From assembly GCA_002706365.1 (NCBI GenBank), contig PALM01000020.1, positions 124,001 to 188,000 on the forward strand: a stretch of 64,000 bases of DNA, read 5' to 3'. The position numbers and the translations under genes are program-made. Source of the DNA: Flavobacteriales bacterium. GTDB lineage: Bacteria > Bacteroidota > Bacteroidia > Flavobacteriales_E > Vicingaceae. Below, in pieces: positions 34,425 through 50,493 of this stretch (position 1 is the stretch's first letter; each line of letters begins with the position of its first letter). The notes under the pieces were generated by a model. That model did not search any database. It was not told the DNA's origin and worked only from the letters and a program-made list of their open reading frames with translations.

Positions 34425-34432
34425 TAACTTTG
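34425..34432 (+). promoter_or_regulatory. Bacteroidota -7 element TAACTTTG upstream of the cobalamin riboswitch
   Basis: Exact TAnnTTTG match just before the aptamer start, so transcription would begin at the riboswitch. No clear -33 element at canonical spacing. Confidence 0.6.
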
Positions 34433-34439
34433 TACCGTT

Positions 34440-34606
34440 ATTGGTTCCATACTATCATAGGATGGATGAAAAGGGAATCCGATGAAAATTCGGAACTGTA
34501 CCCGCAGCTGTAAGCTCCATTAACCTTTAGCCATGTGATGGTCACTTTCTAAATCAAAATGAAGGGAAGGCCGGTTAAAGGGGAGTAAGTCAGAAGACCT
34601 GCCAAT
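34440..34606 (+). ncRNA. Cobalamin riboswitch
   Basis: A B12-sensing leader RNA. The core blocks are in the right order: GGGAATCC, the GATGAAAATTCGGAACTG segment, CCCGCAGCTGTAA, and the B12 box as AGTCAGAAGACCTGCC at about 34587-34602. The spacing between blocks is normal. It probably lowers expression of the downstream operon when cobalamin is plentiful. It precedes a 167-nt leader before the first gene, which has an inverted repeat that could be the switching hairpin. Confidence 0.93.
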
Positions 34607-34674
34607 CACATAAATGCTTTCGGGATTAAAAGCGAAGAGTTTTATACTTTGTATTCTACCCTTTGTGCTTTCCC

Positions 34675-34712
34675 GGTTTAATTAATTTATTGTTTAACAA
34701 TGCAATTAAACC
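34675..34712 (+). promoter_or_regulatory. Inverted repeat in the riboswitch leader (possible expression platform)
   Basis: Perfect 9-bp arms GGTTTAATT / AATTAAACC around a 20-nt loop that has its own ATTG/CAAT pairing, located between the aptamer and the first gene. It has no T-run, so regulation by terminator is doubtful. Confidence 0.45.
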
Positions 34713-34773
34713 AGTGGAATTTGTCAGGCCTAAAAACCTCTTTTCACCTTTAATTGCGCCAAAATCTTTTTTA

Positions 34774-36042
34774 ATGAGAAGATCTCTACTAATTGGCGCG
34801 ATAGGACTAATCTTCAGTCTATCCGCAAAAGGACAAGCAAGCAGCTCTGTCTTAATTATCAATGGCGGCCAATATGGCAACCAAAGTGAAAATGTGAATA
34901 TTCAACTCTACGATCCTGCTACTAATAGCAGTAGAGTACTGGATACCATTCACACACAATCTGTTCAGGACTTATTATTCCATGGCAATGATGTTTTCAT
35001 TGCAGCTCAGGATTCTATTGTTCTGTTTTCTTTAGATACCGAAAGAAGACTTGCAGCCAATCGTTTCTTCGGACCTAGTTCATACAGTTTAGCGATCTAT
35101 CAAAACCAATTGATCGTTGGGAATTGGTATGGAAAGTCGTCGCACAACCTCTATTTCTACGATGCTACAAGCCTTGCTGTAGTTGATTCTATTGCAATAT
35201 TTGATAAGGGTGCTAAATCCATCCTGATCAATAATGGCTTTGCTTATGTGACTCAAAATGCCCAGACTTCAAACTTTGAAGATACGCTTGGAATGATCGT
35301 AAAAGTGGACCTAAGCAATAGAAGCATCACAGACACGATTTCTGTGAGTAATTATTCCGGCGAATTTGGTGAGCTGATCGAAAAGCCAGACCAAAGTGGG
35401 TTCTATGCTGTAAATTCAGTTTCTAACACCATTACCTCTGTCGATTACAGCAATCCTTCAGCTGCTAACAATACGGCAATGGGAGTGGACTTGAGAATAG
35501 GGTCATCTTCTCATTGGTCGCTACACAGCGACACCCTATACGGGCGAATGCACGATGGTATTGGAGCAATCGATCTAACAAATCTTTCCATCATTGATAG
35601 CAGCTTCATTGATACAGTGGTAACAGCTTTTGCATATGATAGCATTGCCAATGAGTTTCATATCACCCAAACGGATTTCTTTAGCTATAATCTAGGAAAG
35701 ACCTACGACCATCAAGGTAGCTTGCTAGCTACATTCAATGTAGGGTACTCTCCAGAAGTAATGGGCGTATTTCCCGCTATTACTCTTGGTATTGAGGAGT
35801 CTTTCTCTACTGTATCAGCTTTGGAGTTTTATCCAAATCCAGCTAGAGAGCAGTTGTTTTTGAATTCAGCTAAGGCTGGAGATGTTCTCAGAATTTTCGA
35901 TATCAGCGGGAGACTGAAAATGGAGCATAGAATCAACAATGTAAGTCGGCAAGTTGATGTTTCAGAGCTCAATAGAGGCACTTATGTGATTAGCCTTCAG
36001 TCGGCCGAATCAATTCAAACGGCAAAACTGATCATTGAATAA
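34774..36042 (+). CDS. T9SS-exported beta-propeller-like surface protein, first gene of the riboswitch operon
   Basis: A 422-residue exported protein. The start at 34774 (MRRSLLIGAIGLIFSLSAKGQ) gives a clean signal peptide; the longer frame lies in the leader. Residues about 22-330 carry repeating blade-like strands ('LYDPATNSSRVLDTIHTQSV', 'YDATSLAVVDSIAIFDKGA', 'LGMIVKVDLSNRSITDTISV') like YncE/DUF5074 propellers. The last ~80 residues are a T9SS type A sorting domain (EFYPNPAREQLFL ... LNRGTYVISL). Placement right after a cobalamin riboswitch suggests a surface corrinoid-binding role, as for Bacteroides BtuG, but this is inference. Its stop overlaps the next ATG (TAATG). Confidence 0.8.
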   Translation: MRRSLLIGAIGLIFSLSAKGQASSSVLIINGGQYGNQSENVNIQLYDPATNSSRVLDTIHTQSVQDLLFHGNDVFIAAQDSIVLFSLDTERRLAANRFFGPSSYSLAIYQNQLIVGNWYGKSSHNLYFYDATSLAVVDSIAIFDKGAKSILINNGFAYVTQNAQTSNFEDTLGMIVKVDLSNRSITDTISVSNYSGEFGELIEKPDQSGFYAVNSVSNTITSVDYSNPSAANNTAMGVDLRIGSSSHWSLHSDTLYGRMHDGIGAIDLTNLSIIDSSFIDTVVTAFAYDSIANEFHITQTDFFSYNLGKTYDHQGSLLATFNVGYSPEVMGVFPAITLGIEESFSTVSALEFYPNPAREQLFLNSAKAGDVLRIFDISGRLKMEHRINNVSRQVDVSELNRGTYVISLQSAESIQTAKLIIE

Positions 36043-37013
36043 TGAGAATCCTATTAACTCTATTCTCTTGCTCAATCCTCTTGCTGTGCAAAGCACAGGG
36101 TCCGTATGCTCCTGCTGTTGGTCATGCCAATAGTACAGCCATCCATATGGATTCTAGCACAATCGTAGATTGGGCTACGAGCTGCTCTGTGCAAAGAGGA
36201 TGGGTGAATATAGCCGATACTAGTTTAGGTAGGGTAACGGTAGGTGAAGCGCATTTTGCCAGTGGAAAAGCAGATCAGCATGGTGTGGTTTCTCTTGGAG
36301 ACGGTGGAGAGGCTATACTTACTTTCAATGGGAAGATATTCGACGGTCCAGGGCCGGATTTTGCAGTTTTCGAGAATTCATTTTCAGATACATTCCTCGA
36401 ATTGGCTTTTGTTGAAGTGAGCTCCGACGGACAAAACTTCTTTCGCTTTCCAGCTCATTCTTTGACCGACACTGCTCAGCAAGTAGGTGGTTTTGGCACA
36501 ATGGACCCTACTAATATTCATAACCTAGCTGGTAAATACAGTTGGAGCTATGGTACGCCTTTCGATCTGGCAGATCTAATTGGTACTCCTGGACTGGATA
36601 TTCAGAGCATTACCCACATCAAGATCATTGATGTGGTAGGTAGTCTTGATTCTGCATATCTCAATAGAGACAGTCGGGCTAGACCAATTAATGATCCTTA
36701 TCCCACTCCTTTTCCTTCCGGTGGATTTGATCTGGATGGAGTTGGAGTGATGCATATTAGCGGTGTGGGTATTGATGAGACTAGCTTAAACGATCAGATC
36801 ACAGTCTATCCAAATCCCGTGAATGATCAATTGAAGATAAGTCATCAAGGTATCGACCTTCAGGAGTATCAATTGATTGATCTTGGTGGCAGAGTGATTC
36901 TTAGAGGTTTAATAGGTAATCAACTAGACCTTTCAAACATACCTTCCGGACAATACATTTTGAGAATAATCAGTGATGATCAAGTAGCGACTAAAAAGAT
37001 CATTAAAAGATGA
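36042..37013 (+). CDS. T9SS surface protein of unknown function in the B12 operon
   Basis: A 323-residue exported protein. After a signal peptide (ending LLCKAQ) there is a ~220-residue beta-rich domain: 'VTVGEAHFASGKADQHGVVSLGDGGEAILTF', 'FDGPGPDFAVFENSFSD', 'LAFVEVSSDGQNFFRF', 'TPFPSGGFDLDGVGVMHI'. The final ~75 residues are a T9SS type A sorting domain (VYPNPVNDQLKIS ... IPSGQYILRI). I know the middle domain only as a pattern in surface proteins near cobalamin transporters and assign no function. It overlaps its neighbours at both ends (TAATG and ATGA), so it is coupled to the propeller protein and BtuB. Confidence 0.82.
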   Translation: MRILLTLFSCSILLLCKAQGPYAPAVGHANSTAIHMDSSTIVDWATSCSVQRGWVNIADTSLGRVTVGEAHFASGKADQHGVVSLGDGGEAILTFNGKIFDGPGPDFAVFENSFSDTFLELAFVEVSSDGQNFFRFPAHSLTDTAQQVGGFGTMDPTNIHNLAGKYSWSYGTPFDLADLIGTPGLDIQSITHIKIIDVVGSLDSAYLNRDSRARPINDPYPTPFPSGGFDLDGVGVMHISGVGIDETSLNDQITVYPNPVNDQLKISHQGIDLQEYQLIDLGGRVILRGLIGNQLDLSNIPSGQYILRIISDDQVATKKIIKR

Positions 37014-38893
37014 AGCTTTTGAGGTCATACTGGCTTCTTGTAGGCATACTGATGGCCCATTTTGGTCTAGCTCAGGATACTATTCGAATCAAGGAGGTTG
37101 AAGTTGAAGCAAAGAGAGAGTTGCTTGAGCTTGGCAGTCAGCGGATCGATTCTATTGGTTTGGCAGACCCTACTAACAAAGACCTCGGCGCTAGTTTGCA
37201 GAAGTACAGCCATGCCTTTGTGAAATCTTACGGCATTGGTAGCATGGCTTCTGTTTCTCTTCGAGGATCTGGTAGTTCACACACGAATCTACTGTGGAAT
37301 GGCGTGCAATTGAACAGCAACAGTCATGGAACGGCTGATCTTTCACTATATCCTCCATTCTTTACTGAGAATTTGGCTGTTTTTTATGGACAGAACAGCA
37401 GTCAGTTTGGTTCCGGAGGTTTGGGAGGAGCTGTGAGTATGGCCAACCAAGTGAGCTTTAATGCTAAAGATCAAATCGAATTTCAGCAAAAGCTTGGAAG
37501 CTTCGGATACAGCTCAACTGCAGCAAAAGCAAGCTTTGGCAATAATAAGTTCAGATCGATCAGCAGGTTGATCTACAGTAGGGCCGATAACGACTTTTCA
37601 TATAGAGACATGAGTGAGATAGGCTTTCCAGAGCATAGTTTGCAACATGCCGATTTTGAGCAGAAAGGTCTCTTGCAGTCGATCCATTATAGACTTAGGG
37701 CAGATCGTAGAATTGACGTGCATCTGTGGTATATGAACACCTATAGGGAATTACCTGGGATGATGGCCATACGCGATCTTGAAGAAATTCAAGAGGATGA
37801 AAACCTTAGAGCTCAAGTCATCTTTAATCAGTATTTCAAGGGAGGCAAGCTCGTTTGGAATAGCAGCTTTGTAAACGATCAACTTCTCTACGATAACAGA
37901 GAACAAGCCAACTCTAGTGCATCAGAGAATCTGAGCTTGAGAAACTATTTGGAAGGTGATTATGCGTTCAAGGACTGGAATTTCAAAGCTAGAATGGATC
38001 TAGATTGGGATCGTTCAATACAATCAAGTCTTAATGGAGGAGAGGTAGAGCGTTTTAGAAAGGCCGTCTATACCAACATCAATAAGGATTTTGGTAGGAA
38101 GTGGAACCTTTCTTTAGCTGCGAGAAATGAATGGATAGAAGATGACTATTTCTTTCTTCCTGAATTGAAAGCCGCATTTGAATTTAGTAAGAATGGAGAA
38201 GTCTGGTTCATTGCCGGAAGGAATATGAAGTATCCATCTTTGAATGATCTATACTGGGCAAGCGGAGGTAATAGCGATCTAAAAGCAGAGGAATCTCAAA
38301 ACCTAGAACTTGGACATAGCTTGGAGATTGCGATAAGCAAAAGAACTAGCTTGGAGCTGAAGAACTCGGTATACTATGCCCTCATAGCCAATTTCATTCA
38401 ATGGGTGCCAAGTAGCAATGGTTATTGGTCGGCAGAGAACCTAAAAGAGGTGCAGAGTACTGGCCTTGAAAGCTCTATTGGATTTACTTATAAAGGCGAG
38501 AAACTGTCGCAGCGGCTGACATTGAACTACAATTACAATCGCTCGATCAATCTGCAGAAGAACCATATTGCAGATGCTTCAGTTGGAAAGCAATTGATCT
38601 ACCAACCTGAGCATCAGTATAATCTGAATTCTAGGACTGCAGTAAAGCAGTACTACTTTGATGCAAATCTCCAGTTTATTAGTGCTCGGTATATACAATC
38701 AGATAATGAGGATTATCTACCGTACTTCTCCTTAGTAGACTTTACTCTTGGTAGAATCATTAAAATGGGTGCCGACCAATTGCAGCTGAGTTTTTCTGTC
38801 CGCAATCTTTTGGATGAAGAGTATCAAGCCATCCAATGGCGACCAATGCCTGGCAGGAATTACATGGTCACGCTGAACTACAAATTGAAGTAA
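37010..38893 (+). CDS. btuB: TonB-dependent receptor, BtuB-like
   Basis: A 627-residue outer-membrane receptor. It has a signal peptide (ending FGLAQ) and a plug domain at about 30-150 ('EVEVEAKRELLELGSQRID', 'SMASVSLRGSGSSHTNLLWNGVQLN', 'FGSGGLGGAVSMAN'). It has a barrel of alternating strands ending 'VSFSVRNLLDEEYQAIQWRPMPGRNYMVTL' with a C-terminal aromatic region. Length is close to E. coli BtuB. The cobalamin assignment rests on the riboswitch and neighbours; the plug alone could also serve iron. Coupled to both neighbours by overlapping stop and start codons. Confidence 0.85.
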   Translation: MKLLRSYWLLVGILMAHFGLAQDTIRIKEVEVEAKRELLELGSQRIDSIGLADPTNKDLGASLQKYSHAFVKSYGIGSMASVSLRGSGSSHTNLLWNGVQLNSNSHGTADLSLYPPFFTENLAVFYGQNSSQFGSGGLGGAVSMANQVSFNAKDQIEFQQKLGSFGYSSTAAKASFGNNKFRSISRLIYSRADNDFSYRDMSEIGFPEHSLQHADFEQKGLLQSIHYRLRADRRIDVHLWYMNTYRELPGMMAIRDLEEIQEDENLRAQVIFNQYFKGGKLVWNSSFVNDQLLYDNREQANSSASENLSLRNYLEGDYAFKDWNFKARMDLDWDRSIQSSLNGGEVERFRKAVYTNINKDFGRKWNLSLAARNEWIEDDYFFLPELKAAFEFSKNGEVWFIAGRNMKYPSLNDLYWASGGNSDLKAEESQNLELGHSLEIAISKRTSLELKNSVYYALIANFIQWVPSSNGYWSAENLKEVQSTGLESSIGFTYKGEKLSQRLTLNYNYNRSINLQKNHIADASVGKQLIYQPEHQYNLNSRTAVKQYYFDANLQFISARYIQSDNEDYLPYFSLVDFTLGRIIKMGADQLQLSFSVRNLLDEEYQAIQWRPMPGRNYMVTLNYKLK

Positions 38894-39936
38894 TGTTTCG
38901 CAATCTACTTCTATACAGTTTGTTAGGACTTTTGATATTTTCCTGTAAAGAGGAAGATTCAAATGGAATTGAAGATCCCATTGATACGGATGAAAGACAT
39001 GTTCTTGTCTTGAATGAGGGGAACTTCCGTTCAGCAAATGCTTCCATATCAGTTTACCTCCCAAATAAAAAGTCGGTGCATCATGATGTGTATTCAAATG
39101 CGAATCAGGATGTGCCTTTGGGCGATGTTGTGCAGTCGGCCAATAAGATCAATGGCAATTTATGGTTGGTAGTAAATAATTCAAACAGAATAGAGATTCT
39201 TGAGCCACGCACATATAAGTGGATCGGAAGAGTGAGTGCTTTGAATTCACCGAGATACTGTATTCCAGGGCCAAATGGGAAGGTGTATGTGAGCGATCTG
39301 TATGAAGGAATGGTCTATGTGGTAGATGTAAATTCTTATACTGTTACTGACAGGATTTCCACAAATGGCTGGACAGAAGAAATGTTGTTGATTGGAGATA
39401 GTTTATTTGTGTGTCAGGTGGATAGTAGTCAGCTTTTAGTGATCAACACCATGAGCGACAGTATTGTAGATCGCATTCCAACTGCGAAATCGCCCTTATC
39501 CTTAGTCTTAGATATCAATGGAAAGATTTGGATAGGCTGCAGTGGAGGATTCAATGATCAGGATCCCGCATTGATGAAGATCGATCCAAAAAGCTTGATT
39601 GTAGAGATGACTTTAAGTGTGCCGGATGTTTCTAAGAGCATTGGAGATCTCGCTATGAGTCCGTCTAAAGATGAGCTCTATTTTCTAATGGATGATCTCT
39701 ATAAGATGGATATCAACGCCACAGCTTTGCCGGCAAATGCATGGGTCACTAAGGCGTCAGCCAATTTCTATGCAATGGATGTGGATCCATTTAATGGAGA
39801 TGTGTATTTAAGCGATGCGATTGATTATCAGCAAGATGGCGTGATCTATAGATATGATTCGAACGGACAAATGATTCATCAGTTCAAGACTGGATTAATC
39901 CCTGGATTTTTCTATTTTGATGATTCAGATGATTGA
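38893..39936 (+). CDS. Surface lipoprotein with YncE/DUF5074-like beta propeller (BtuG-like)
   Basis: A 347-residue lipoprotein. The start at 38893 gives a signal peptide with lipobox LIFSC, and the Cys is followed by an acidic segment (KEEDSNGIEDP), as in Bacteroidota surface-exposed lipoproteins. The body is a beta propeller: 'VLVLNEGNFRSANASISVYL', 'GPNGKVYVSDLYEGMVYVVDV', 'DINGKIWIGCSGGF', 'DVDPFNGDVYLSDAIDY'. Bacteroides BtuG, which binds B12 tightly at the surface and partners BtuB, has the same kind of fold and gene neighbourhood. The start overlaps the BtuB stop (TAATG). BtuG-like is inferred from fold and context. Confidence 0.83.
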   Translation: MFRNLLLYSLLGLLIFSCKEEDSNGIEDPIDTDERHVLVLNEGNFRSANASISVYLPNKKSVHHDVYSNANQDVPLGDVVQSANKINGNLWLVVNNSNRIEILEPRTYKWIGRVSALNSPRYCIPGPNGKVYVSDLYEGMVYVVDVNSYTVTDRISTNGWTEEMLLIGDSLFVCQVDSSQLLVINTMSDSIVDRIPTAKSPLSLVLDINGKIWIGCSGGFNDQDPALMKIDPKSLIVEMTLSVPDVSKSIGDLAMSPSKDELYFLMDDLYKMDINATALPANAWVTKASANFYAMDVDPFNGDVYLSDAIDYQQDGVIYRYDSNGQMIHQFKTGLIPGFFYFDDSDD

Positions 39937-40738
39937 TTTTAGGCCAGAACGAATAGTTTGTCTCACCGAAGAAAGTACAGAAACCCTGTATCTCTTAGGA
40001 GAAGAGGATAGAATTGTAGGCATTTCAGGATTTACGGTCAGACCGGAACAGGCCAGAAAAGAAAAACCTAAAGTCTCTTTATTCACAGATGCCAGTAATG
40101 ATAAGATCGTAGACCTTAAGCCCGATCTAGTGATTGGCTTCTCGGATATACAAGCAGATATCGCATCCCAATTGATCAAGAAGGGAATTAATGTTTGGGT
40201 GAGCAATCAACGCTCATTAAAAGAGATCATGGCCTATATCATTCAGCTTGGGTCATGGGTAGGAAAGCAAGAAGAAGCCACAGAGCTGGTAAAGAACTAT
40301 CAAAGTCGGCTAGATGAGATAAAAACCATAACTCAGTCGTGGGAAAATAAACCTAAAGTGTACTTCGAGGAATGGTATGATCCATTGATCAGTGGAATAT
40401 CCTGGGTAAGCGAATTGATAGAGATCGCAGGTGGCGTAGATTGTTTTGGGCATTTAGCTGTGGAATCCCTTGCTAAAAACAGAATCATTGCCGAGCATGA
40501 GGAAGTGATCAAAGCCAATCCGGATGTAATCTTCGCAAGCTGGTGCGGGAAGATGTTCAAGAAGGAGAGATTGCTGGCAAGAGAAGGTTGGGAGAAGATC
40601 CAAGCAGTGAAGGATGATCAGATCTTCGAGATCGATTCGTCAATTATATTACAGCCCGGTCCGGCAGCGCTGACTGATGGGGTGGAGGAGATTTTTAAAT
40701 ATTTAAAATCGTGGTGCGATTCCAATGTATCAATTTAG
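39929..40738 (+). CDS. BtuF-like cobalamin-binding protein lacking a signal peptide
   Basis: A 269-residue class III substrate-binding-protein fold: 'PERIVCLTEESTETLYLLGE' at the N-terminus, 'DKIVDLKPDLVIGFSDIQADI', 'LIEIAGGVDCFG', and 'VIKANPDVIFASWCG' near the C-terminal lobe. No signal peptide or lipobox is seen; any of the candidate starts (39917 TTG, 39920 and 39929 ATG) begins directly with the fold. So it would be cytoplasmic unless it is exported in another way. Its gene overlaps the propeller gene end by 8 nt. In many bacteria similar signal-less forms accompany cobalamin genes, so it may bind corrinoid in the cytosol. Confidence 0.8.
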   Translation: MIDFRPERIVCLTEESTETLYLLGEEDRIVGISGFTVRPEQARKEKPKVSLFTDASNDKIVDLKPDLVIGFSDIQADIASQLIKKGINVWVSNQRSLKEIMAYIIQLGSWVGKQEEATELVKNYQSRLDEIKTITQSWENKPKVYFEEWYDPLISGISWVSELIEIAGGVDCFGHLAVESLAKNRIIAEHEEVIKANPDVIFASWCGKMFKKERLLAREGWEKIQAVKDDQIFEIDSSIILQPGPAALTDGVEEIFKYLKSWCDSNVSI

Positions 40739-41052
40739 TAATATACCGATGTGAAAATGGATTACATTCAATGTGTTTTTTCCCGCTGATTACGCAAAAA
40801 AGAAAGTCAGAGCCAGTAATCAGATTGATTTGATTTCGCAGATTTTTAATTCATAAATTGTAATTGACTTTATACAACTTATCTAATCAGCGTGATCATC
40901 TGCATCGCAGGATCTCTGATCCTGCGTGGGCATTATATAAAGAGTGAAAATTCCGCAGGATTACAAATCCTGCGGTACAGAGCGGGAAACCTAAAAAAGA
41001 ATTAATAAAACATGGACGTCTTCGATCCTCGTCCTCAATCATCAAAAACAAC
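40739..41052. repeat. Repeat-rich gap with two GCAGGAT hairpins
   Basis: No gene seen in 314 nt. It contains hairpin CGCAGGAT/ATCCTGCG at 40906-40926 and hairpin CCGCAGGAT/ATCCTGCGG at 40953-40975, which share the GCAGGAT stem and differ in loop. An outer inverted repeat CGCTGATTA (40784-40792) / TAATCAGCG (40884-40892) lies just before them. The REP-like arrangement lies between the signal-less BtuF gene and the DUF71 gene and may also stop transcription. Confidence 0.75.
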
Positions 41053-41847
41053 ATGCCTAAACGATTCATGAATTGGAGTAGTGGTAAGGATTCTGCCCTT
41101 TGTCTGCATAGATTAATAGAAAGCGGCAATGCTCCGGAACTATTGCTCACCACCATTAGCAAAGAAGAGCAAAGGATTGGTATGCATGGCACAAGACGCG
41201 AGCTTTTGGAAGAACAAGCAGCTGCAATTGGTATTCCTCTTCAGATCACTGAGCTCTCTGCCTCTACAGACCATGAAGCCTACAATAAATTGATGTATGA
41301 TACTTGCATGCAGTTAAAATCAGAAGGATTCGACACTGCAGTTTTTGGCGATATCTTTTTAGAAGATTTAAGAAACTATCGTGAAACACAATTGAATGAA
41401 GTAGGTATAAATGGTGAGTTTCCACTTTGGAAGAACGATACTAAAACATTGATCAAAGAGTTTGTAAATTCAGGATTGAAGTCGGTCATTGTTGCCGCAT
41501 TACAAGAGCATTTTGATGAAGATTTTGTGGGGACAGAGATCGATTCATCATTCATATCAAAGCTTCCGGAAGAAGTAGACCCATGTGGAGAGTATGGTGA
41601 ATTTCACAGCTTTTGCTATAATGGACCAATCTTTAAGCAAGAAATAACGTTTGAAAGAGGAGATAAGGTGTTGAAGTACTATAATAAACCTAAAGAGAGT
41701 AAATCAGAAATCCGCCGTCCTGAGCCTGTCGAAGGGAGAGATCAGAAATCGGAAACTTTAGATTCAAATGAAGAAAGCCGGACTCGTTCCTCGGACTCAG
41801 ACTCTAGATTAGGCTTCTATTACCTTGATCTGATCCCTAATAATTAG
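41053..41847 (+). CDS. DUF71/Dph6-like ATP pyrophosphatase (B12-associated branch) with repeat-derived insert
   Basis: A 264-residue ATP-PPase of the COG2102 family, starting MPKRFMNWSSGKDSALCLHRL with the PP-motif SSGKDS. Family motifs include 'FGDIFLEDLRNYRETQL', 'PLWKNDTKTLIKEFVNSG' and 'DPCGEYGEFHSFCY'. Eukaryotic and archaeal members make diphthamide; a bacterial branch has been proposed to act in B12 salvage by genome comparison, which fits this location. Near the C-terminus (residues about 217-252) is a polar segment (KSEIRRPEPVEGRDQ ...) encoded by an intergenic-type repeat, after which the conserved ending GFYYLDLIPNN resumes. The core looks intact. Confidence 0.88.
   Translation: MPKRFMNWSSGKDSALCLHRLIESGNAPELLLTTISKEEQRIGMHGTRRELLEEQAAAIGIPLQITELSASTDHEAYNKLMYDTCMQLKSEGFDTAVFGDIFLEDLRNYRETQLNEVGINGEFPLWKNDTKTLIKEFVNSGLKSVIVAALQEHFDEDFVGTEIDSSFISKLPEEVDPCGEYGEFHSFCYNGPIFKQEITFERGDKVLKYYNKPKESKSEIRRPEPVEGRDQKSETLDSNEESRTRSSDSDSRLGFYYLDLIPNN
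41703..41750 (+). repeat. GAGC-core hairpin repeat, copy 2, flanked by a 10-nt direct repeat inside the DUF71 gene
   Basis: The direct repeat ATCAGAAATC stands at 41703-41712 and 41741-41750. Between them is the core GAGCCTGTCGA within a CCT...AGG stem. The whole is in frame in the DUF71 gene. Confidence 0.7.
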
Positions 41848-41931
41848 AATGTTAAAAACACCTTTAAAAGAGAAGTAGTTGAAAGCCTCAAAATGTGAGG
41901 TGGCTTTTACGATATTTGTAAGCCTACAAAA

Positions 41932-44900
41932 ATGAGAAGACAGATCTACAGACTTACGATACTATTAATTGCTTTCCTATCTCTAGCTGGTAGAGCAGAG
42001 GCTCAGGAGTGGAGATTGATCATGGCTCTCACTGTGACCAATGATGGAAAGAGAATGGAAGGGGCTACGGTTGAGCTGCGCAAAGGCGGTTCTGTTGTAA
42101 AGACCTTCAAAACGGATAGCAGAGGTAATGTAGACGTCCCCTTGGATCCAAATGGAGATTATGAGATTTCCATTACGGGCAATGGTCTTATCAATAAGAA
42201 GATCAGTGTAAGTACAAAGGGTGTTCCACCAGAAGATCTTTCCGGTGATCATTATTATGAAGCAGAAGTAGACATCTTTCCAAAATTAGAAGGGCTCGAC
42301 TATAAAGTCCTGGATCAACCCATTGGAAAGCTCTCATATTTTCCAGATGATCAGGCATTTGATAATGACTACGATTATACAAAGCAACGACAAGCTGCCT
42401 TAGCTAAGCTGCAAAAGGATTACCTAGCGCAGAAAGCAAGAGAAGCCGAGCTTGCAGAACAGAAGCAGAAAGAATACGACGCTGCCATTAAAGCTGCTGA
42501 TAAAGCCTTTAATGATGAACAATGGGAGCTTGCAGAGAAGGAATACAAGAGAGCAGCTGAATTAATGCCAATAGAGACCTATCCTACTTTCCAATTAGCT
42601 GAATTGGAAACCAAGCTGATCAGAATAAGAGAGGCAACCAAAAACTACAATGAGGCCATTAAACTGGCAGATGCTGCTGCTGAGCAAAAAGATTATCAAA
42701 GAGCAGTAACCGAGTATAAAAGAGCTGCATCCATCAAGCCAGATGAAACTTATCCTAAAGATAAGGTTGATGAGATGCAAGGCTTATTGGCTCAGCAAGT
42801 CAAGAATGAGCAAACCTATTTAGCCGCAATAGAACGAGGTGATAATGCATTGAAGGTAGCCGATCTGAATACGGCCAAAGCTGCTTTTGAAGAAGCAACT
42901 AAAGCAAAGCCGGATGAGGCATATCCAAAGAATAAACTCGCCGAGATCAACGATATCTTAGGAAAGAGGGAAGCTAAAGAAGCTGAATATCAAGCCGCTA
43001 TTAAAGCTGGTGATGAGGCTTTAGCCGCTAAGAAATACGATGAAGCTAAAGCCAGCTATCAAAAAGCATTAGGTGTTAAGCCAACTGAGTCTTATCCTCA
43101 AGAACAGATAGGGAAAGTTGACGCCATGATCGCTGAAGCCGCAAAAGAACAGCAAGAATACCTAGCTGCAATTGAAAGAGCTGATCAAGCTTTGGCTGCA
43201 AATCAATTAGAGACAGCTCTTGCTGCCTATAAAGAAGCTGGAGGTATAAAACCCGCAGAAGAATATCCAAAGAACAAGGTAAAAGAGGTTGAGTCGATCA
43301 TTGCCAAGAATGCAGAGAAGGACAAAGCCTATAAAGAAAAGATTGCCGAAGCAGATAAAGCATTTGGCAGTGAATCGTATGAAGAAGCAAAGACAGCCTA
43401 TCAAGCTGCAGCCGGACTAAAGCCGAACGATAGCTATCCACAAAACAAAATCACTGAAATAGATGGGATCCTAGCGGCTAGAGCTAAGAAGGATGAGGAA
43501 TATAATGCGGCAATACAAGCAGCAGATCAAGCATTGGCAGCTGAGAATTTTACTTTGGCGAAAGAAAAGTACAATGCAGCTCAGTCGATCAAGCCAGATG
43601 AGTCATATCCAAAAGAAAAACTAGCTGAAATAAGCACCATTGTTTTGAAGCGGGAAGAAATTCAAGCTGCCTATGATAAAGCCATTCAGAATGGCGATGA
43701 TGCCTTAGCCTCAGCTGATCTTGATAAGGCCAAGCAGTTCTTCACTGAAGCACAGAATATCAAAGCCGAAGAGAGTTATCCCAAAGAAAAACTAAGTGAG
43801 ATCGATGGCATCATCAAACAAAGAGAAGCTGCCGAGACAGAGTATAAAGAAACAATAGCCACTGCGGATGAAGGATTAAAGAATATGGACTTAGAGGCTG
43901 CGCTTTCAAGCTATCAGAAAGCAGCAGGATTAAAGCCAGATGAAACTTATCCTAAAGATCAGATCACCAAGGTGCAGGGAATGATGGCAGAAGCTGCCAA
44001 GGAAGAGCAAGACTACTTAGCTGCAATAGAAAGAGGAGATCAAAATCTACAGGAAAACAATTGGGATGCGGCATTGGTAGCATTTAAGGAAGCCAAAGGC
44101 ATTCGTCCGAATGATACTTACCCAACAGATAAGATCTCAGAAATTGAAGGTCTGATGGCAGCAGCTGCTGAGAAGGATGCCAAGTATAATGAGGCCATAG
44201 CAGCAGGAGATAAAGCTTTCCAAGCTGAGAATTACGCCGAAGCAAAAAGCTCTTATGAAGCTGCATTGAAGATCAAAGATGATCAGTACCCGAAAGATCA
44301 AATTGTAGCAGTTGATGAAAAGCTAGCCGCTATAGCTGCAGAAAAGGCTGCAGAAGAAAAGCTTTTGGCTGATTATGGGAATTTCATACTGGAAGGTCAA
44401 AACAAGCTTGATGCAGAAGACTACCAAGCAGCATTGACAGCCTATAAGAAAGCAGCCGAATTGAAACCTGATGAAAAGCTACCTCAGGAAAGAATTACGG
44501 AAATAGAGAACACCCTTGCCGAACTTCAGGCAAAAGAAGAAAAAGAAGCTCGTCAGGCCGAATTGAAAGCCAATTACGATGCTAAGATCGTTGAAGCAGA
44601 TGCCTTAATGGCAAAAGAGGACTATAATGGGGCGCGTGAATCATATCAGCAGGCGCTAACAATAATCGCTGGAGAAGCATACCCTCAAGGAAAGATAGAG
44701 GAGATCAATAAGATCTTAGAAGATGCTGCAGAACAAGAAGAATTATATGCATCAGCAGTAACTGCAGGTGAGGAGTTGATGAAGCAGGAAGAGTGGAAGG
44801 CTGCCAAGGTCAAATTCGAAAGAGCAAAGGAGATCAAACCAGATGAGCCATTCGTTCAAAAGAAGATCGACGAGATCGATGCGAAATTGGCAGAAATTGC

Positions 44901-47559
44901 AGCAGAAGAGGCTGCGATTCGACTAGCAAACCAAAAGCAAGAAGAGACCGACAAGCAATATGCTGCTTTGATGACAGAAGCGGATGGACTAGCATCGAAT
45001 TCAAAGTGGATCGCTGCAAAAGGCAAGTATGAAGAAGCTCTTGAACTTAAGGATGAGCAAGAGGTAAAGGATAAGATCCAAGAAATGGATGCAAAGATTG
45101 CCGAGGAAGACGCTAAAGTTGCAGCCGCTGAGCAGAAAAAACTCGATGATCAATACAATGCACTGATCTCAGAAGCTGATGCATTCTTCAGCAATAATGA
45201 TCTTGAAGATGCTAAACTGAAATACAAGGCAGCTTTAGATTTAAAAGATGAACAATACCCTAGGGATCAGTTATTGGCTCTTCAGGAGAAAGAGAATGAA
45301 TTGGATGCAGCAGCAGAGCAGGCTAAGATCGATGCTCAGTTTCAAGCTGTATTGGCAGAAGCAGATGCTTTATTTGATGAGAACAAACCGGAAAAGGCGG
45401 GTGCTAAGTATCGTGAGGCATTGAAGATCAAAGAAGATCAATATGCCCGAGATCAACTTAAATTGGTCGATGCTAGAATTGCAGAGATAGTCGCGGCTCA
45501 GCAAGCAAAAGCTGCAAAGGCAGAAATTGATGCTCAGTATGCTCAAGTGATCGCAGAAGCGGATCAAGCTTTTGAAAACAAGGATTATCAAAGAGCGAAA
45601 TCTAAGTATGAAGAGGCTATTGGTTTAAAAGAGGGGGACTCTTACCCAACTCAAAAACTTGGAGAAATTGAGAACTTAATGAAAGAGCAGTCGGCTGATG
45701 ATCAGTATAATAAATTGATCCTCTTGGCTGACAATGCGATCAAAACCAAGGATTTTGAAACAGCAAAAGAGCAGTATAGAAAGGCATCTGAACTAAAGCC
45801 AGAGGAATCGTATCCAAATGAGCAATTGGGAAAGATCGATGAGATGATAGCCGCTGAAGCAGCAAAAGCGGAGCAGATCAAATTAGCACAAGAGCAAGAA
45901 GCCAAGAAAGAGTCAGATTATCAGGCTGCAATTGCTTCAGGAGATAAATTGCTTTCAGATAAGCATTATGATGCTGCTATTGAACAATATCAGCTGGCTA
46001 AGGGTCTTCGTCCGGATAAATCCTATCCATCTGAACAGATCGATAGAATCAGAGATATTCAGAAAGCTAATGCTTTAGCTGCTGCAGAGAAGGAGAAGGA
46101 AAAAGAAGAGCGAGAAAAGCGCTATCTAGAGATCATTTCATTGGGTAATAAAGCCTTTAAAGAGGAAGACTACAACACAGCTCTTCGTCAGTATGAAGCT
46201 GCTTTATCAATGAAACCCGGAGAAGTTTATCCTCAAAACAAGATCAAGGAAATAAACTCTATCCTAAGAGGTGCAGAGGAGGAAGAAAAGCCAAAAGAAG
46301 AGCCTAAACCAATTGCAGTTCAAACTGGACCAAAATCTTCTGTAGATGGAAGTGCAGAAGATGAAATTGATAAGATGTACGCAGAGATGTGGGATAAGCA
46401 GAAGGCTGAGAAAGGTTCAGAAATAGAGAAGAAGAGAGAACTGCTTAATGCAATGCAGGAAGAGGATAAAGAAAAGGAAGAAGCTCGCAGACAAAATGCG
46501 ATTGAACGCATAGAGAGTATCTCTATCAGCATGAGGGATCAGCAACAGAATACTGAAGAATTGAATCTTCAGAATTATGAAACTGTGAAGCGCAATACCA
46601 AGGAACATGATGAGCGCACCCAGGAGTTGACCAAAGAGTCTGAACGCAGAAGGAATAACAATTTGGTAGATAATGAAGCCAATTTGGAAGCCAATGCGAA
46701 TTTCAGAAAGGAAAAGAACGAAGAAAGTCAGGCTAAGAATATCGATCTAGAGAGAGAGAAGCAAGATCAGATCGACTTCAGAAAAGAACTTACAGAAGAG
46801 CAAAGACAGCGAATTTATCAGGAAGGTGATAATGTTCTACTCAAAGAAGAAGCTGTTAGGAATTACAATAGTGCTAGAGCTGAAGAGAACTTGCATAAGA
46901 ATACCGGTGACTTGGATCAGAGAGTGAAGGAGCATAGAGAGGCGATGAAAGACAATGAATCTGAGCAAAACAAGAGAACCAGATTAGAGAAGGATAAAGT
47001 GGTTGTGCTTCAGGAAGAACTACGTACATATAATCAAGAACGTTCTGATGATTATATGGAAGGCTATGAAAAAGTTAAAGCCGATATAAAGGCTAAGGAG
47101 GACTTTGAAGATGCAAATCAAGCCAATGCCGATAAAAGAAGATCAAATGAACAGCAGAATATCGACGATATAGCTAATGATATCAAGGAACAGCAAGAAG
47201 AAGGTAATACTAGACCTAACGACAATTATTTGGAAGTTGTAGAAACCACCGAGGCTTTAGAGCAGAGTCGCAAAGAAGATCAGAGTGAAGCTGAAAAACG
47301 CCGTCAGGAAGCAAAGGATAAGAAGTTCTACGAAGGGGAGGATAAGCCTAGAGAGGATCCTGAGGCTGCTAATTATCCTCAAGGCGTTACTGAAAAGATC
47401 ATTGAGAATCCTAATGGAAGCACAACTATTCGTCGTATCAAAGTAGAGGGAACCCAAGTTGATATTTACGAAAAGACCTTATTCTCCTATGGTAAGATCC
47501 ATTACACTAAGAATGGAGCGCCAATTACAAAGGAAATGTGGGACGCAAATAGCAAATAG
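41932..47559 (+). CDS. Giant exported protein with 21 TPR-like repeats of about 57 residues
   Basis: A 1875-residue protein. Residues 1-25 are a signal peptide (ends AGRAEAQ). About 27-110 look like a carboxypeptidase-regulatory-like beta domain ('GATVELRKGGSVVKTFKTDSRG'). A coiled-coil linker (about 145-179) leads to 21 repeats at about 180-1468. The consensus unit is Y..AI..AD.AL....Y..AK..Y..A..IKP.E.YP...I.EI...LA, a TPR-like helix pair plus a charged third helix. A coiled, Glu/Lys/Gln-rich tail (about 1469-1810) follows. It ends with a compact ~60-residue domain: 'TEKIIENPNGSTTIRRIKVEG' and 'KNGAPITKEMWD'. No sorting signal or lipobox is visible, so the periplasm is likely. The BtuF gene starts 3 nt downstream. 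Function unknown. Confidence 0.85.
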   Translation: MRRQIYRLTILLIAFLSLAGRAEAQEWRLIMALTVTNDGKRMEGATVELRKGGSVVKTFKTDSRGNVDVPLDPNGDYEISITGNGLINKKISVSTKGVPPEDLSGDHYYEAEVDIFPKLEGLDYKVLDQPIGKLSYFPDDQAFDNDYDYTKQRQAALAKLQKDYLAQKAREAELAEQKQKEYDAAIKAADKAFNDEQWELAEKEYKRAAELMPIETYPTFQLAELETKLIRIREATKNYNEAIKLADAAAEQKDYQRAVTEYKRAASIKPDETYPKDKVDEMQGLLAQQVKNEQTYLAAIERGDNALKVADLNTAKAAFEEATKAKPDEAYPKNKLAEINDILGKREAKEAEYQAAIKAGDEALAAKKYDEAKASYQKALGVKPTESYPQEQIGKVDAMIAEAAKEQQEYLAAIERADQALAANQLETALAAYKEAGGIKPAEEYPKNKVKEVESIIAKNAEKDKAYKEKIAEADKAFGSESYEEAKTAYQAAAGLKPNDSYPQNKITEIDGILAARAKKDEEYNAAIQAADQALAAENFTLAKEKYNAAQSIKPDESYPKEKLAEISTIVLKREEIQAAYDKAIQNGDDALASADLDKAKQFFTEAQNIKAEESYPKEKLSEIDGIIKQREAAETEYKETIATADEGLKNMDLEAALSSYQKAAGLKPDETYPKDQITKVQGMMAEAAKEEQDYLAAIERGDQNLQENNWDAALVAFKEAKGIRPNDTYPTDKISEIEGLMAAAAEKDAKYNEAIAAGDKAFQAENYAEAKSSYEAALKIKDDQYPKDQIVAVDEKLAAIAAEKAAEEKLLADYGNFILEGQNKLDAEDYQAALTAYKKAAELKPDEKLPQERITEIENTLAELQAKEEKEARQAELKANYDAKIVEADALMAKEDYNGARESYQQALTIIAGEAYPQGKIEEINKILEDAAEQEELYASAVTAGEELMKQEEWKAAKVKFERAKEIKPDEPFVQKKIDEIDAKLAEIAAEEAAIRLANQKQEETDKQYAALMTEADGLASNSKWIAAKGKYEEALELKDEQEVKDKIQEMDAKIAEEDAKVAAAEQKKLDDQYNALISEADAFFSNNDLEDAKLKYKAALDLKDEQYPRDQLLALQEKENELDAAAEQAKIDAQFQAVLAEADALFDENKPEKAGAKYREALKIKEDQYARDQLKLVDARIAEIVAAQQAKAAKAEIDAQYAQVIAEADQAFENKDYQRAKSKYEEAIGLKEGDSYPTQKLGEIENLMKEQSADDQYNKLILLADNAIKTKDFETAKEQYRKASELKPEESYPNEQLGKIDEMIAAEAAKAEQIKLAQEQEAKKESDYQAAIASGDKLLSDKHYDAAIEQYQLAKGLRPDKSYPSEQIDRIRDIQKANALAAAEKEKEKEEREKRYLEIISLGNKAFKEEDYNTALRQYEAALSMKPGEVYPQNKIKEINSILRGAEEEEKPKEEPKPIAVQTGPKSSVDGSAEDEIDKMYAEMWDKQKAEKGSEIEKKRELLNAMQEEDKEKEEARRQNAIERIESISISMRDQQQNTEELNLQNYETVKRNTKEHDERTQELTKESERRRNNNLVDNEANLEANANFRKEKNEESQAKNIDLEREKQDQIDFRKELTEEQRQRIYQEGDNVLLKEEAVRNYNSARAEENLHKNTGDLDQRVKEHREAMKDNESEQNKRTRLEKDKVVVLQEELRTYNQERSDDYMEGYEKVKADIKAKEDFEDANQANADKRRSNEQQNIDDIANDIKEQQEEGNTRPNDNYLEVVETTEALEQSRKEDQSEAEKRRQEAKDKKFYEGEDKPREDPEAANYPQGVTEKIIENPNGSTTIRRIKVEGTQVDIYEKTLFSYGKIHYTKNGAPITKEMWDANSK
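42814..44350 (+). repeat. Higher-order duplication of a repeat block inside the giant gene
   Basis: Repeats 3-6 (from about 42814) and 8-11 (from about 43669) correspond pairwise. The linker ends match: GKREAKEA/KQREAAET, EAAKEQQ/EAAKEEQ, NAEKDK/AAEKDA. This is a period of five repeats, about 855 nt. Confidence 0.7.
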
Positions 47560-47562
47560 GCT

Positions 47563-48708
47563 ATGCTCAGATCACTCAAACTGGCTACCGCCTTTCTATT
47601 CTTAAGCCTATTATATTCATGTGAGAACGAACATCAGGGCGACTTTCAATCTGATGGCTTTGAATTGCTTTATGAAAGTGATGAATATGAGATCTTTCAT
47701 CGGGGTAAAGAGTTCATCTTAGAAGTAGTTCACCCATATCCGGGAGCATCTACTCCAGAGTACTATCATTTGCACCCCAGGTATATGGAAGCACTTGAGT
47801 TAGAAAATGTAACTCATCATATTCCTTATCCAATCGATGGCATTGCCATAAGCTCTACTACCCATTTAGGCTTTTTAGAAGCACTTGGCATGGGTGATAG
47901 AATTATTGGGGCAAATAATCCACAGCTTTTCTATTCCACTGAGTTCAATGAACGCTTCAAGAATGGAGAGATTCGCAATATTGGAGGTGCCAAATTTGAT
48001 GAGGAGCTATTGATCAAGCTCAATATTGATGTCTTATTCGCTTTTGCATTAAGTCCTTCTGATCTAGGCTCAATCAATGATTTGAGGGAAAGTGGGATCA
48101 AAGTGGTAATGATCTCAGAGTTCCTAGAAGCAGACCCTTTGAAAAAGGCCAAGTGGTTGAAGTTCTTTGCTGTCTTTTTTGGGGAAGAAAAACTGCTAAA
48201 AAGCAATCAACTGCTAAATGCGATTGAAGCTCAATACCTGCTTATCAAGGATGCGGTGGCAAGCCAAGAAAATAAACCAACTGTAATGATGGGATATCCA
48301 TGGAAAGGAAGTTGGCATGTAAGCGGAGGAGCTTCATATCAAGCAAAGTTCTTTAGGGATGCCGGTGCTGAATATATTTGGTCTGATTTCGATCAAACAG
48401 GTAGCGTGCCTTTAGATATTGAAGTGGTACTTAAGAAAGGAGCAAACACAGACTTCTGGTTAAATCCAGGTGATAAGCAGTCCATTTCTCAAATACTGGA
48501 ATCAAATGATAATTTCTCTTCTTTTTCAGCTGTCAAACAGGAGCAGGTATATTCAAACTATGCCAGGACGACAGCACTTGGGGCAAATGATGCTTGGGAG
48601 AAAGGAGTAGTTAGGCCGGATTTGATTCTGGCAGATCTAGCCACTATCTTTCATCCTGCGGTCTTAGGTGAAAGGGAATTGTACTTTTACAAGCAATTAG
48701 AACCATAA
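47563..48708 (+). CDS. btuF: ABC transporter substrate-binding lipoprotein (BtuF-like)
   Basis: A 381-residue lipoprotein with lipobox LYSC (Cys about 20). The class III periplasmic binding fold includes 'IDGIAISSTTHLGFLEALGMGDRIIGANN', 'FDEELLIKLNIDVLFAFA', and 'RPDLILADLATIFHPAVLGE'. It should hold its ligand in the periplasm for the permease encoded downstream. Corrinoid is inferred from the locus; ferri-siderophore is the main alternative since the families are close. The gap to the giant gene is 3 nt and to the permease about 22 nt (ATG) or 4 nt (TTG). Confidence 0.85.
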   Translation: MLRSLKLATAFLFLSLLYSCENEHQGDFQSDGFELLYESDEYEIFHRGKEFILEVVHPYPGASTPEYYHLHPRYMEALELENVTHHIPYPIDGIAISSTTHLGFLEALGMGDRIIGANNPQLFYSTEFNERFKNGEIRNIGGAKFDEELLIKLNIDVLFAFALSPSDLGSINDLRESGIKVVMISEFLEADPLKKAKWLKFFAVFFGEEKLLKSNQLLNAIEAQYLLIKDAVASQENKPTVMMGYPWKGSWHVSGGASYQAKFFRDAGAEYIWSDFDQTGSVPLDIEVVLKKGANTDFWLNPGDKQSISQILESNDNFSSFSAVKQEQVYSNYARTTALGANDAWEKGVVRPDLILADLATIFHPAVLGERELYFYKQLEP

Positions 48709-48730
48709 GGATTTGCAGACAAAAGGAATC

Positions 48731-49726
48731 ATGATCATCATTCTTGGAGCAATACTCTTGCTCTTGTTCATTGCCGATCTACTTATTGGTTCAGTGCATA
48801 TTCCAATAGATAGCATTATTGGCTATTTAAAGGGAGCTAAGATCAATGAAACTGATTATCTCATCCTTCACCATTCTAGATTACCCAAAGCAATTACTGC
48901 AATAATTTGTGGAGGGGCTTTATCCGTTGCCGGTTTACAGATGCAGACTCTTTTCAGAAACCCCCTTGCCGGACCATATATACTCGGCATTAGCAGTGGA
49001 GCAGGTTTAGGAGTAGCCATTCTATTAATGGGCTTAGGTCTCTTAGGTTTGAGTGCTATCAATGAGTGGTCTTTAGCCGCTGCTGCTTTTTTAGGAGCAT
49101 TCTCGATCCTATTCATCCTGCTTTTGCTCTCATATCGCTTGAAAGATGTAATGACCCTTCTTATTGTGGGTATAATGATTGGGGCCATTGCCACTGCTTT
49201 AATTGGGATCTTACAATTCTATTCTAACGATTTCCAATTGAAGTCATTTGTGATCTGGAGTTTGGGAAGCCTGGATTCTGTTGGTTATCAAAAGCTGGGA
49301 ATCATGGGAGGCGCATGTGTTCTTGCCTCTTTGCTGGCCTTTGTGAACTCAAAACCCTTGAATTCACTCTTAATGGGTGAAGCTTTCGCAAGTAGCGTGG
49401 GCATCAATATCAATAGAATTCGCATACTCAGCATCTTGTCTACTGGCATTTTAGCAGGTACGGTAACTGCATATTGCGGGCCAATAGGTTTTGTGGGAAT
49501 CGTGGTGCCACATTTGGGGAGAATGCTCTTTCAAAGCACCGACCATTCCTGGTTGATTCCAGTCTGTATATTGATGGGAGCAATCCTTTTGCTCTTTTCT
49601 GATATACTATCTCATCTGCTTGTCGATCAAATGGCATTGCCAATTAATTCCATCACTGCACTTCTGGGGATTCCAATAATTATTTGGATACTATTAGCGC
49701 GACAAAGAGTCTCACAATCATTCTAA
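48731..49726 (+). CDS. btuC: FecCD/BtuC-family ABC transporter permease
   Basis: A 331-residue inner-membrane permease with about ten transmembrane helices. Motifs are 'LPKAITAIICGGALSVAGLQMQTLFRNPLAGPYILGISSGAGLG' in pieces matching the family, and 'CGPIGFVGIVVPHLGRML' before the last helices. The start is uncertain: TTG at 48713 and ATG at 48731 are in frame, both with purine-rich sequence upstream. I chose the ATG. The stop overlaps the next ATG (TAATG). Confidence 0.87.
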   Translation: MIIILGAILLLLFIADLLIGSVHIPIDSIIGYLKGAKINETDYLILHHSRLPKAITAIICGGALSVAGLQMQTLFRNPLAGPYILGISSGAGLGVAILLMGLGLLGLSAINEWSLAAAAFLGAFSILFILLLLSYRLKDVMTLLIVGIMIGAIATALIGILQFYSNDFQLKSFVIWSLGSLDSVGYQKLGIMGGACVLASLLAFVNSKPLNSLLMGEAFASSVGININRIRILSILSTGILAGTVTAYCGPIGFVGIVVPHLGRMLFQSTDHSWLIPVCILMGAILLLFSDILSHLLVDQMALPINSITALLGIPIIIWILLARQRVSQSF

Positions 49727-50493
49727 TGATCAGCTTAAAACACATAGAGATATCGTATGAGTCAGTGCTCTTATTGAAGGCTGAAATGCTTCATCTAAAG
49801 AAGGGCGAAATGATAGCACTTATAGGTAGGAATGGAAGTGGGAAGTCGTCTTTGATCAAAGGTATTTCCGGCTTGAATAAAAGCTTAAAAGGAGACATAC
49901 ACATCAATGAATCACCTTTATCTAAATTGAATTCACTGGAGCTAGCAAGAAGTTTGGCCATAGTCCATACAGATGCTCCATTCCCGGCAATTATGGCAAT
50001 GGAGGAGTTTGTGGCTTTTGGCCGATACCCTTTCAATAATTGGTTGGGCAAATTGAGACAGCAAGACCTTGATGCGGTTAATGCGGCAATAGAAGCTTGC
50101 GACTTGAAATATCTCAGAGGTCAGAGTATGGATAAATTGAGTGATGGGGAGCGACAAAGAGCTATGATCGCCAGAGCAATCTCTCAGGATAGCGAATTTT
50201 TGATCTTGGATGAACCCAGCACCCATCTTGATGGGCAGAATACCTTGAAAATATTGAAGTTGTTGAAAGAGCAGGCAAAGGAGAAGGGTAGAGGAGTGCT
50301 CTATTCAACGCATAGGATTGCAGAGAGTATTGAACTCGCAGATCGCTTGTGGATAATTTCCAATAAAGAGTTAAAAGCCTATTCCAAAGCAGAATTCCTC
50401 TCTGATTTAAAGCTTCAGAAATCTATTCTAGGAGAGCACATCACTTATCAGGAAGGGGAGAGTGGCAGTCAGTTCAGCATCAATCTGAGCTAA
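49726..50493 (+). CDS. btuD: ABC transporter ATP-binding protein (BtuD/FecE-like)
   Basis: A 255-residue ATPase that powers the BtuC permease. Walker A is GRNGSGKSSL, the signature is LSDGERQRAM, and Walker B is FLILDEPSTHLD. The switch His is in YSTHRIAES. The start ATG overlaps the permease stop. Cobalamin specificity comes from context only. It is convergent with a small lipoprotein gene with a 14-nt overlap. Confidence 0.9.
   Translation: MISLKHIEISYESVLLLKAEMLHLKKGEMIALIGRNGSGKSSLIKGISGLNKSLKGDIHINESPLSKLNSLELARSLAIVHTDAPFPAIMAMEEFVAFGRYPFNNWLGKLRQQDLDAVNAAIEACDLKYLRGQSMDKLSDGERQRAMIARAISQDSEFLILDEPSTHLDGQNTLKILKLLKEQAKEKGRGVLYSTHRIAESIELADRLWIISNKELKAYSKAEFLSDLKLQKSILGEHITYQEGESGSQFSINLS

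Follow-up and report, generated by a model that had tools for sequence, protein, structure and literature searches.

A cobalamin uptake cluster with a giant gene

At positions 41932..47559 on the forward strand of the window, by which we mean the whole 64,000-nucleotide stretch of Vicingaceae DNA that was analysed, lies a reading frame that starts with ATG and encodes 1875 residues. The coordinates were as first noted, and a check of the genome returned one uninterrupted frame, identical to the ORF in the window. The gene is part of a cluster that runs entirely on the same strand. It begins with a cobalamin riboswitch (RF00174, 105.6 bits; 34425..34620), the only RNA that Rfam detected over the whole window, followed by two genes for proteins with type IX secretion system (T9SS) tails (34663..36042 and 36042..37013), a BtuB-like TonB-dependent B12 receptor (37010..38893; best model TIGR01779 with E 4.8e-27, which is below the equivalog cut-off), and a homologue of BtuG, a DUF5074 beta-propeller lipoprotein (38836..39936; PF16819, E 1.2e-23). 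Against the PDB, the latter matched 8p97_B at 5.9e-57 and 8okv_B at 2.8e-56. The order continues with a BtuF-like binding protein (39917..40738; PF01497, E 1.7e-48), a Dph6-like ATP-pyrophosphatase (41053..41847; PF01902, E 3.1e-32), the giant gene, and, starting 4 bp past it, the substrate-binding lipoprotein BtuF2 (47563..48708; PF01497, E 3.1e-12, and synteny). A BtuC permease (48713..49726) and a BtuD-like ATPase (49684..50493), assigned like the T9SS-tail proteins by domain search, complete the cluster.

The first-pass annotation had known of no described function for this gene. We likewise found no described homologue; what had been overlooked was the context, namely the riboswitch and the complete cluster for B12 uptake around the gene. 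The protein is real, conserved, and structurally unusual, and it has a strong functional context that was previously unnoted.

Several features of the neighbouring genes were observed alongside. The BtuF-like protein starts with MMIQMIDFRPERIVCL and has no signal peptide, while BtuF2 has a lipobox; the former is thus probably cytoplasmic. At its 3' end (41700-41847), the Dph6-like gene has a tail that makes the product longer than most relatives (264 versus about 233 residues); CCTGAGCCTGTCGAAGG, contained in this tail, resembles a dispersed REP-type repeat. The 315-bp gap between the BtuF-like and Dph6-like genes carries the neighbouring inverted repeats gcaggatctctgatcctgc and ccgcaggattacaaatcctgcgg at 40905-40975.

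Domain architecture and predicted fold

Sequence, profile searches, and AlphaFold2 (AF2) models describe an exported protein in which a carboxypeptidase-regulatory-like domain, 21 TPR units, a charged rod, and a C-terminal module (C-module) follow one another. Judged by eye, residues 1-25 (MRRQIYRLTILLIAFLSLAGRAEA, followed by Q; 41932..42006) form a predicted signal peptide with an AxA cleavage site in front of the glutamine, and AxAQ is kept in relatives, which bears out the earlier reading of the protein as exported. No lipobox cysteine was found after the signal peptide (the sequence, ...AGRAEAQEWRL, is without Cys), and PF18962 and TIGR04183, the models for T9SS tails, matched both T9SS neighbours and gave no match in the giant protein. 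Together, these features suggest a soluble periplasmic protein. Relatives, which range from about 400 to 2250 residues, share the signal peptide with the N-terminal beta domain, the repeat array, and the C-module of ~60 residues, while the middle is variable.

The N-terminal domain (residues ~26-145; 42007..42366) resembles carboxypeptidase-regulatory-like domains (PF13620/PF13715) in its weak match to PF13620 (E 4.2e-5, below the Pfam gathering score) and in its predicted beta sandwich, of which 100 residues superimposed at 3.4 A on a domain of SleC. It differs from them in this sub-gathering score and in the conserved segment that follows it, KPIAK..Y...DydYtksi, which is specific to the family. 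The array had been described as capped by a beta domain and a separate C-terminal domain; the C-terminal folded beta module stood, whereas the other beta domain sits at the N terminus. The same genome also encodes three short exported proteins (L002:1498-2022, L003:1462-1935, and L004:1501-1974) made up of the N-terminal beta domain alone.

The repeat array spans residues 179-1452 (42466..46287). An iterated profile trained on the repeat itself found exactly 21 copies at 51-75 bits each, as the first-pass annotation had counted, with a mean pairwise identity of 33%. The 57-residue period proposed there holds for copies 2-11, while later copies are spaced by 56-71 residues. The turn motif KP.E.YP, described as invariant, is not: by hand count in the repeat alignment, YP occurs in 17 of the 21 copies and KP in 11. 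The conserved positions are Y, A, D, A, Y, A, P, and YP, which look like TPR core residues. PF07719 (TPR_2) scored 60.9 bits over the whole protein (cut-off 27), with no single stretch passing alone, and 68.8 bits with 5 stretches in a homologue from a second family (L188, of family f5, see below). A sequence search of the PDB with the whole protein gave only weak TPR matches, such as Ski3/TTC37.

Across ~70 family members, the spacings between units were not evenly distributed: peaks at 57, 60, 64, 67, and 71 residues account for 662 of 800 spacings and correspond to 57 plus multiples of 3.5 residues, which is one helical turn. For spacings above 58, the vector strength R(3.5) was 0.64, and none of 2000 uniform draws exceeded 0.125. 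This statistic overstates the sample size because homologous positions are not independent, with the peaks nonetheless recurring in unrelated branches. Spacing quantised by helical turns provides independent sequence support for a chain of continuous helices.

Such a chain was also what AF2 predicted. The model of residues 24-521, built with 30 homologues (mean pLDDT 92.6, pTM 0.43), shows the beta sandwich followed by a helix of 35-36 residues that alternates with one of 14 residues, the long helix combining a repeat's third helix with the first helix of the one after it. Structure prediction had been set beforehand as a check, and its outcome was helical; disorder was ruled out by the AF2 model and the quantised spacings. 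A single unit superimposed on the TPR domain of Sgt2 (5lyn_A) over 56 residues at 1.0 A, whereas alignments longer than one unit against TPR proteins gave a TM of ~0.1 and an rmsd of roughly 20-50 A. Each unit is thus modelled as one TPR hairpin with a capping helix, as in TPR proteins, while the period is 57-71 rather than 34 residues, the third helix runs into the next repeat, and stacking into a continuous TPR superhelix was not found (pTM 0.43, as above). Hence, in the model, the array extends as a chain, with single TPR units strung on continuous helices in a spectrin-like manner, and is not the solenoid, or TPR superhelix, that had been proposed. Spectrin-type repeats are three-helix units in which the linking helix is shared between neighbours. 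The likeness is one of design principle only, and we claim no homology: the present repeat is half as long and is a TPR rather than a spectrin bundle.

At about 2.5-3 nm per repeat, a rough estimate puts the contour of the array at 50-60 nm, which probably exceeds the periplasm. The suggestion that the array could span much of the periplasm therefore understated its length. A straight bridge is unlikely at such a contour, and the protein would have to follow the wall, bend, or adopt a compacted form.

The number of repeats ranges from 12 to 24 in Vicingaceae orthologues and from 2 to 23 elsewhere. Such variation would be expected if capacity mattered more than exact length, that is, if the protein were a periplasmic cobalamin buffer whose repeats bind or concentrate corrinoids, or provide docking sites for many copies of a binding protein, instead of acting as a tether. 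The riboswitch-linked loci and the adjacent BtuF2 would fit such a buffer as well. However, the conserved repeat positions resemble the TPR core with no ligand pocket evident, and paralogues outside B12 contexts share the repeat, so that we consider a buffer improbable.

Between the repeats and the C-module lies a charged stretch of ~360 residues (1453-1812; 46288..47367; E 19%, K 11%, R 8%, D 8%), which AF2 predicts to be a helical rod. The model of the C-terminal 486 residues runs from the last repeat through two long helices, of 126 and 189 residues, to a folded beta module, although long polar helices such as these two are often over-predicted. The C-module itself (~61 residues, YPQGVTE...IRRI.V.G...Y.K....G...Y.KNG..IT...WD; 47374..47556) was delimited by alignment and the AF2 model, and its predicted fold is a beta-meander plus helix. 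Its consensus across relatives reads YPQGVTEE...IRRIVV.G...DVYEK..Y.WGG.YY.KNG..IT...WD.ES, and this alignment together with the modelled fold upheld the view that it is a separate conserved module. The module had no match above the cut-off in Pfam and no significant match in the PDB, either by sequence or by fold, the query model in the latter search also containing the rod. The profile search proposed for these C-terminal residues found the module to be common, in 145 of 295 sampled Bacteroidia genomes with 1-8 copies each; the source genome has one copy. It thus represents a widespread Bacteroidia domain outside the reach of Pfam. In Cryomorphaceae-like genomes (L122, L123, L124, L126, L128, and L130), short exported proteins of ~250-280 residues with a conserved neighbourhood combine a single TPR unit with a charged stretch and the C-module and lack the N-terminal domain.

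A small C-terminal domain behind a long charged helix recalls a force transducer or energy coupler of the TolA/TonB type, which here would serve the B12 receptor, and the Ala/Lys/Asp/Glu-rich helices in L146, L147, and L153 presumably resemble TolA domain II. A cleavable signal with AxAQ, after which a beta domain and no membrane anchor follows (by eye), and a C-module modelled as beta-meander plus helix make such a coupler extremely unlikely. The same C-terminal layout, a conserved extreme C-terminal module behind a variable middle, is common for sorting signals. With T9SS cargo proteins as neighbours, the C-module might be an unrecognised type IX secretion signal and the protein a surface or secreted adhesin-like filament. 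We regard a filament as very unlikely, given that neither T9SS-tail model matches the protein, that a single C-module in its own genome is far fewer than expected for a general sorting signal, and that the N-terminal domain is conserved alongside the C-module.

Gene neighbourhoods within and beyond Vicingaceae

The gene was found in single copy in 32 of 32 good Vicingaceae genomes. BtuG, BtuF2, and the riboswitch were each also present in all 32, and because all four are universal, presence or absence within the family cannot discriminate between associations. Other Vicingaceae genera keep the gene order BtuB-BtuG-(BtuF)-Dph6-giant gene-BtuF2-BtuC-BtuD, and Acidiluteibacter ferrifornacis (L102) has the same B12 cluster. 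In about half of the Vicingaceae loci, the gene instead lies behind tpiA, apart from BtuB and BtuG. Even there BtuF2 comes after it in most cases, whether or not a ~330-residue protein and a DUF4846 protein lie in between. BtuF2 is the most constant neighbour: in most Vicingaceae, as well as in L146, L150, and L153, it comes next or is separated by one or two genes, while in genus g4 (L037, L062, and L082) the gene is apart from BtuF2 as well. BtuF2 being the constant partner, the substrate-binding protein is the first candidate for a direct contact. In L043, L057, L059, L068, L069, and L152, the gene is often followed by the DUF4846 protein and the ~330-residue exported protein, which is without Pfam match; DUF4846 has been listed among papain-like cysteine proteinases (PMC10318531).

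Just upstream of the start codon, in most Vicingaceae and in B12 and tpiA contexts alike, we found the 11-bp element TACGATATTTG (41908..41918, forward strand, in the window), which is also located before the corresponding genes of L068 and L069 from other families. Loci with the element include, besides these two, L034, L036, L037, L038, L041, L049, and L055. The intergenic DNA around it is otherwise diverged, and TTNCGATATTTG occurs only three times in the source genome. The -7 box of Bacteroidota is TAnnTTTG, from which the element departs by one mismatch (GATATTTG). TACGATATTTG, which is conserved with the gene, is probably the gene's own promoter. Scans for sigma-70 promoters and terminators yielded no more than shuffled sequences did. 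The gene lies downstream of the riboswitch on the same strand, but with this element directly before it, riboswitch control cannot be assumed in the window.

Next, we considered lineages outside Vicingaceae. Among the matches listed class-wide, the positions of C-modules relative to BtuG were unimpressive, a result that was reversed by complete family-level lists. The second family, f5, is that of genome G040 and includes G337 (locus L131) and G352; the locus of G352 matches L125, a record from Crocinitomicaceae, in gene content and lengths. C-module proteins are present in 35 of 35 f5 genomes and BtuG in 32. For 17 of the 32 with BtuG, which represent 9 genera, a hand count from coordinates placed a C-module protein no more than about 6 kb from BtuG, with both on one strand, where chance would give roughly 1% per genome. 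The typical order is riboswitch-T9SS-(T9SS-2)-BtuB-BtuG-(Dph6 or a ~280-residue gene)-giant gene with short gaps, and RF00174 was found upstream in all eight f5 loci scanned. In some f5 genera, two or three tandem short family members replace the one long gene; in L131 and L125, three of them stand right after BtuG behind the riboswitch. No element like TACGATATTTG was seen in the f5 loci checked, in which the gene follows BtuG with short gaps. A cobalamin riboswitch also lies upstream in L069, which belongs to a third family.

Synteny in two families ruled out that the gene is a chance neighbour of B12 genes. Since the linkage arises through different arrangements in separate families, it would be difficult to account for if the genes shared no role, and the context lends good support to an involvement in B12. 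Many family members nevertheless lie away from B12 genes (L106-L121 and L127-L142), for instance beside AsmA and OmpA/PD40/TPR genes in L110 or beside CsgG/LpoB-like and LPP20 genes in L137. In a quick tree of the N- and C-terminal modules, members linked to B12 clustered (9 label changes versus 24 in shuffles); the tree has long branches, and what it displays is clustering, not a single origin. With so many paralogues outside B12 loci, the architecture is general and a role in B12 may be one of several uses.

These distributions bear on the possibility that the protein is a general scaffold of the cell envelope, serving cell wall or outer membrane architecture, that has no specific role in B12 and owes its place in the locus to inherited gene order. 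The spread of the C-module over Bacteroidia, the contexts without B12 genes, including those Vicingaceae with the gene behind tpiA, and a promoter-like element kept whatever the neighbours would all be expected of such a scaffold. It accounts poorly for a linkage that recurs in two families right after BtuB-BtuG and behind the riboswitch, in arrangements as different as one giant gene or a tandem of three short ones, in which Dph6 and BtuF2 may be present or absent, and for a link to BtuF2 that survives relocation of the gene. We therefore regard a general scaffold as possible but doubtful.

A candidate periplasmic component of B12 import

Vitamin B12 is scarce, and many bacteria need to import it. 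In Bacteroidota, uptake is known in detail for the steps at the cell surface; for the crossing of the wide periplasm, diffusion to BtuF is assumed. We propose that the giant protein is probably an undescribed structural part of the B12 import machinery. That it acts there specifically as a soluble periplasmic scaffold or tether is a tentative reading, to which we give not quite an even chance. The N-terminal beta domain and the C-module would be two conserved ends, probably used for binding, and the 21 TPR units on continuous helices, together with the charged rod, would form a very long bendable spacer that might offer many peptide-binding TPR faces. By this means the protein could hold BtuB-BtuG at the outer membrane and BtuF2, with BtuCD, within mutual reach; alternatively, it could anchor BtuB-BtuG, BtuF2, and BtuCD to the cell wall. 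In either case, the scarce vitamin would be handed across. A broader proposal, which we find rather doubtful, is that the family constitutes a new class of component, a periplasmic TPR giant that organises the cobalamin relay from BtuB-BtuG to BtuF-BtuCD in Flavobacteriales, with paralogues doing likewise for other envelope systems across Bacteroidia.

With a conserved giant protein, probably periplasmic, in B12 loci, the periplasm-crossing step becomes testable. Apart from B12, the repeat is of use for protein design, as a clear case in nature of TPR units whose spacing follows whole helical turns.

The cluster in the window can be compared with the cobamide transport loci of Bacteroides, which contain BtuB, BtuG, BtuH, and BtuFCD (PMC6143338, PMC10404256, PMC8941943, and PMC13398666). 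It shares with them the riboswitch, BtuB, BtuG, BtuF, BtuC, BtuD, and surface proteins. In the searched passages of these papers, we found no mention of a TPR or giant periplasmic component. Three of the papers describe BtuG, BtuH, and DUF4465 proteins (PMC10404256, PMC8941943, and PMC13398666), the last-named proteins binding B12 experimentally (PMC13398666). A further likeness is that other lineages with the giant gene carry DUF4465 in their B12 locus: in the f5 loci L131 and L191, the product of the first cargo gene contains this domain. The version in the window, encoded by the first of the two cargo genes (34663-37013), has a T9SS tail only and may represent another binder or one that has diverged strongly.
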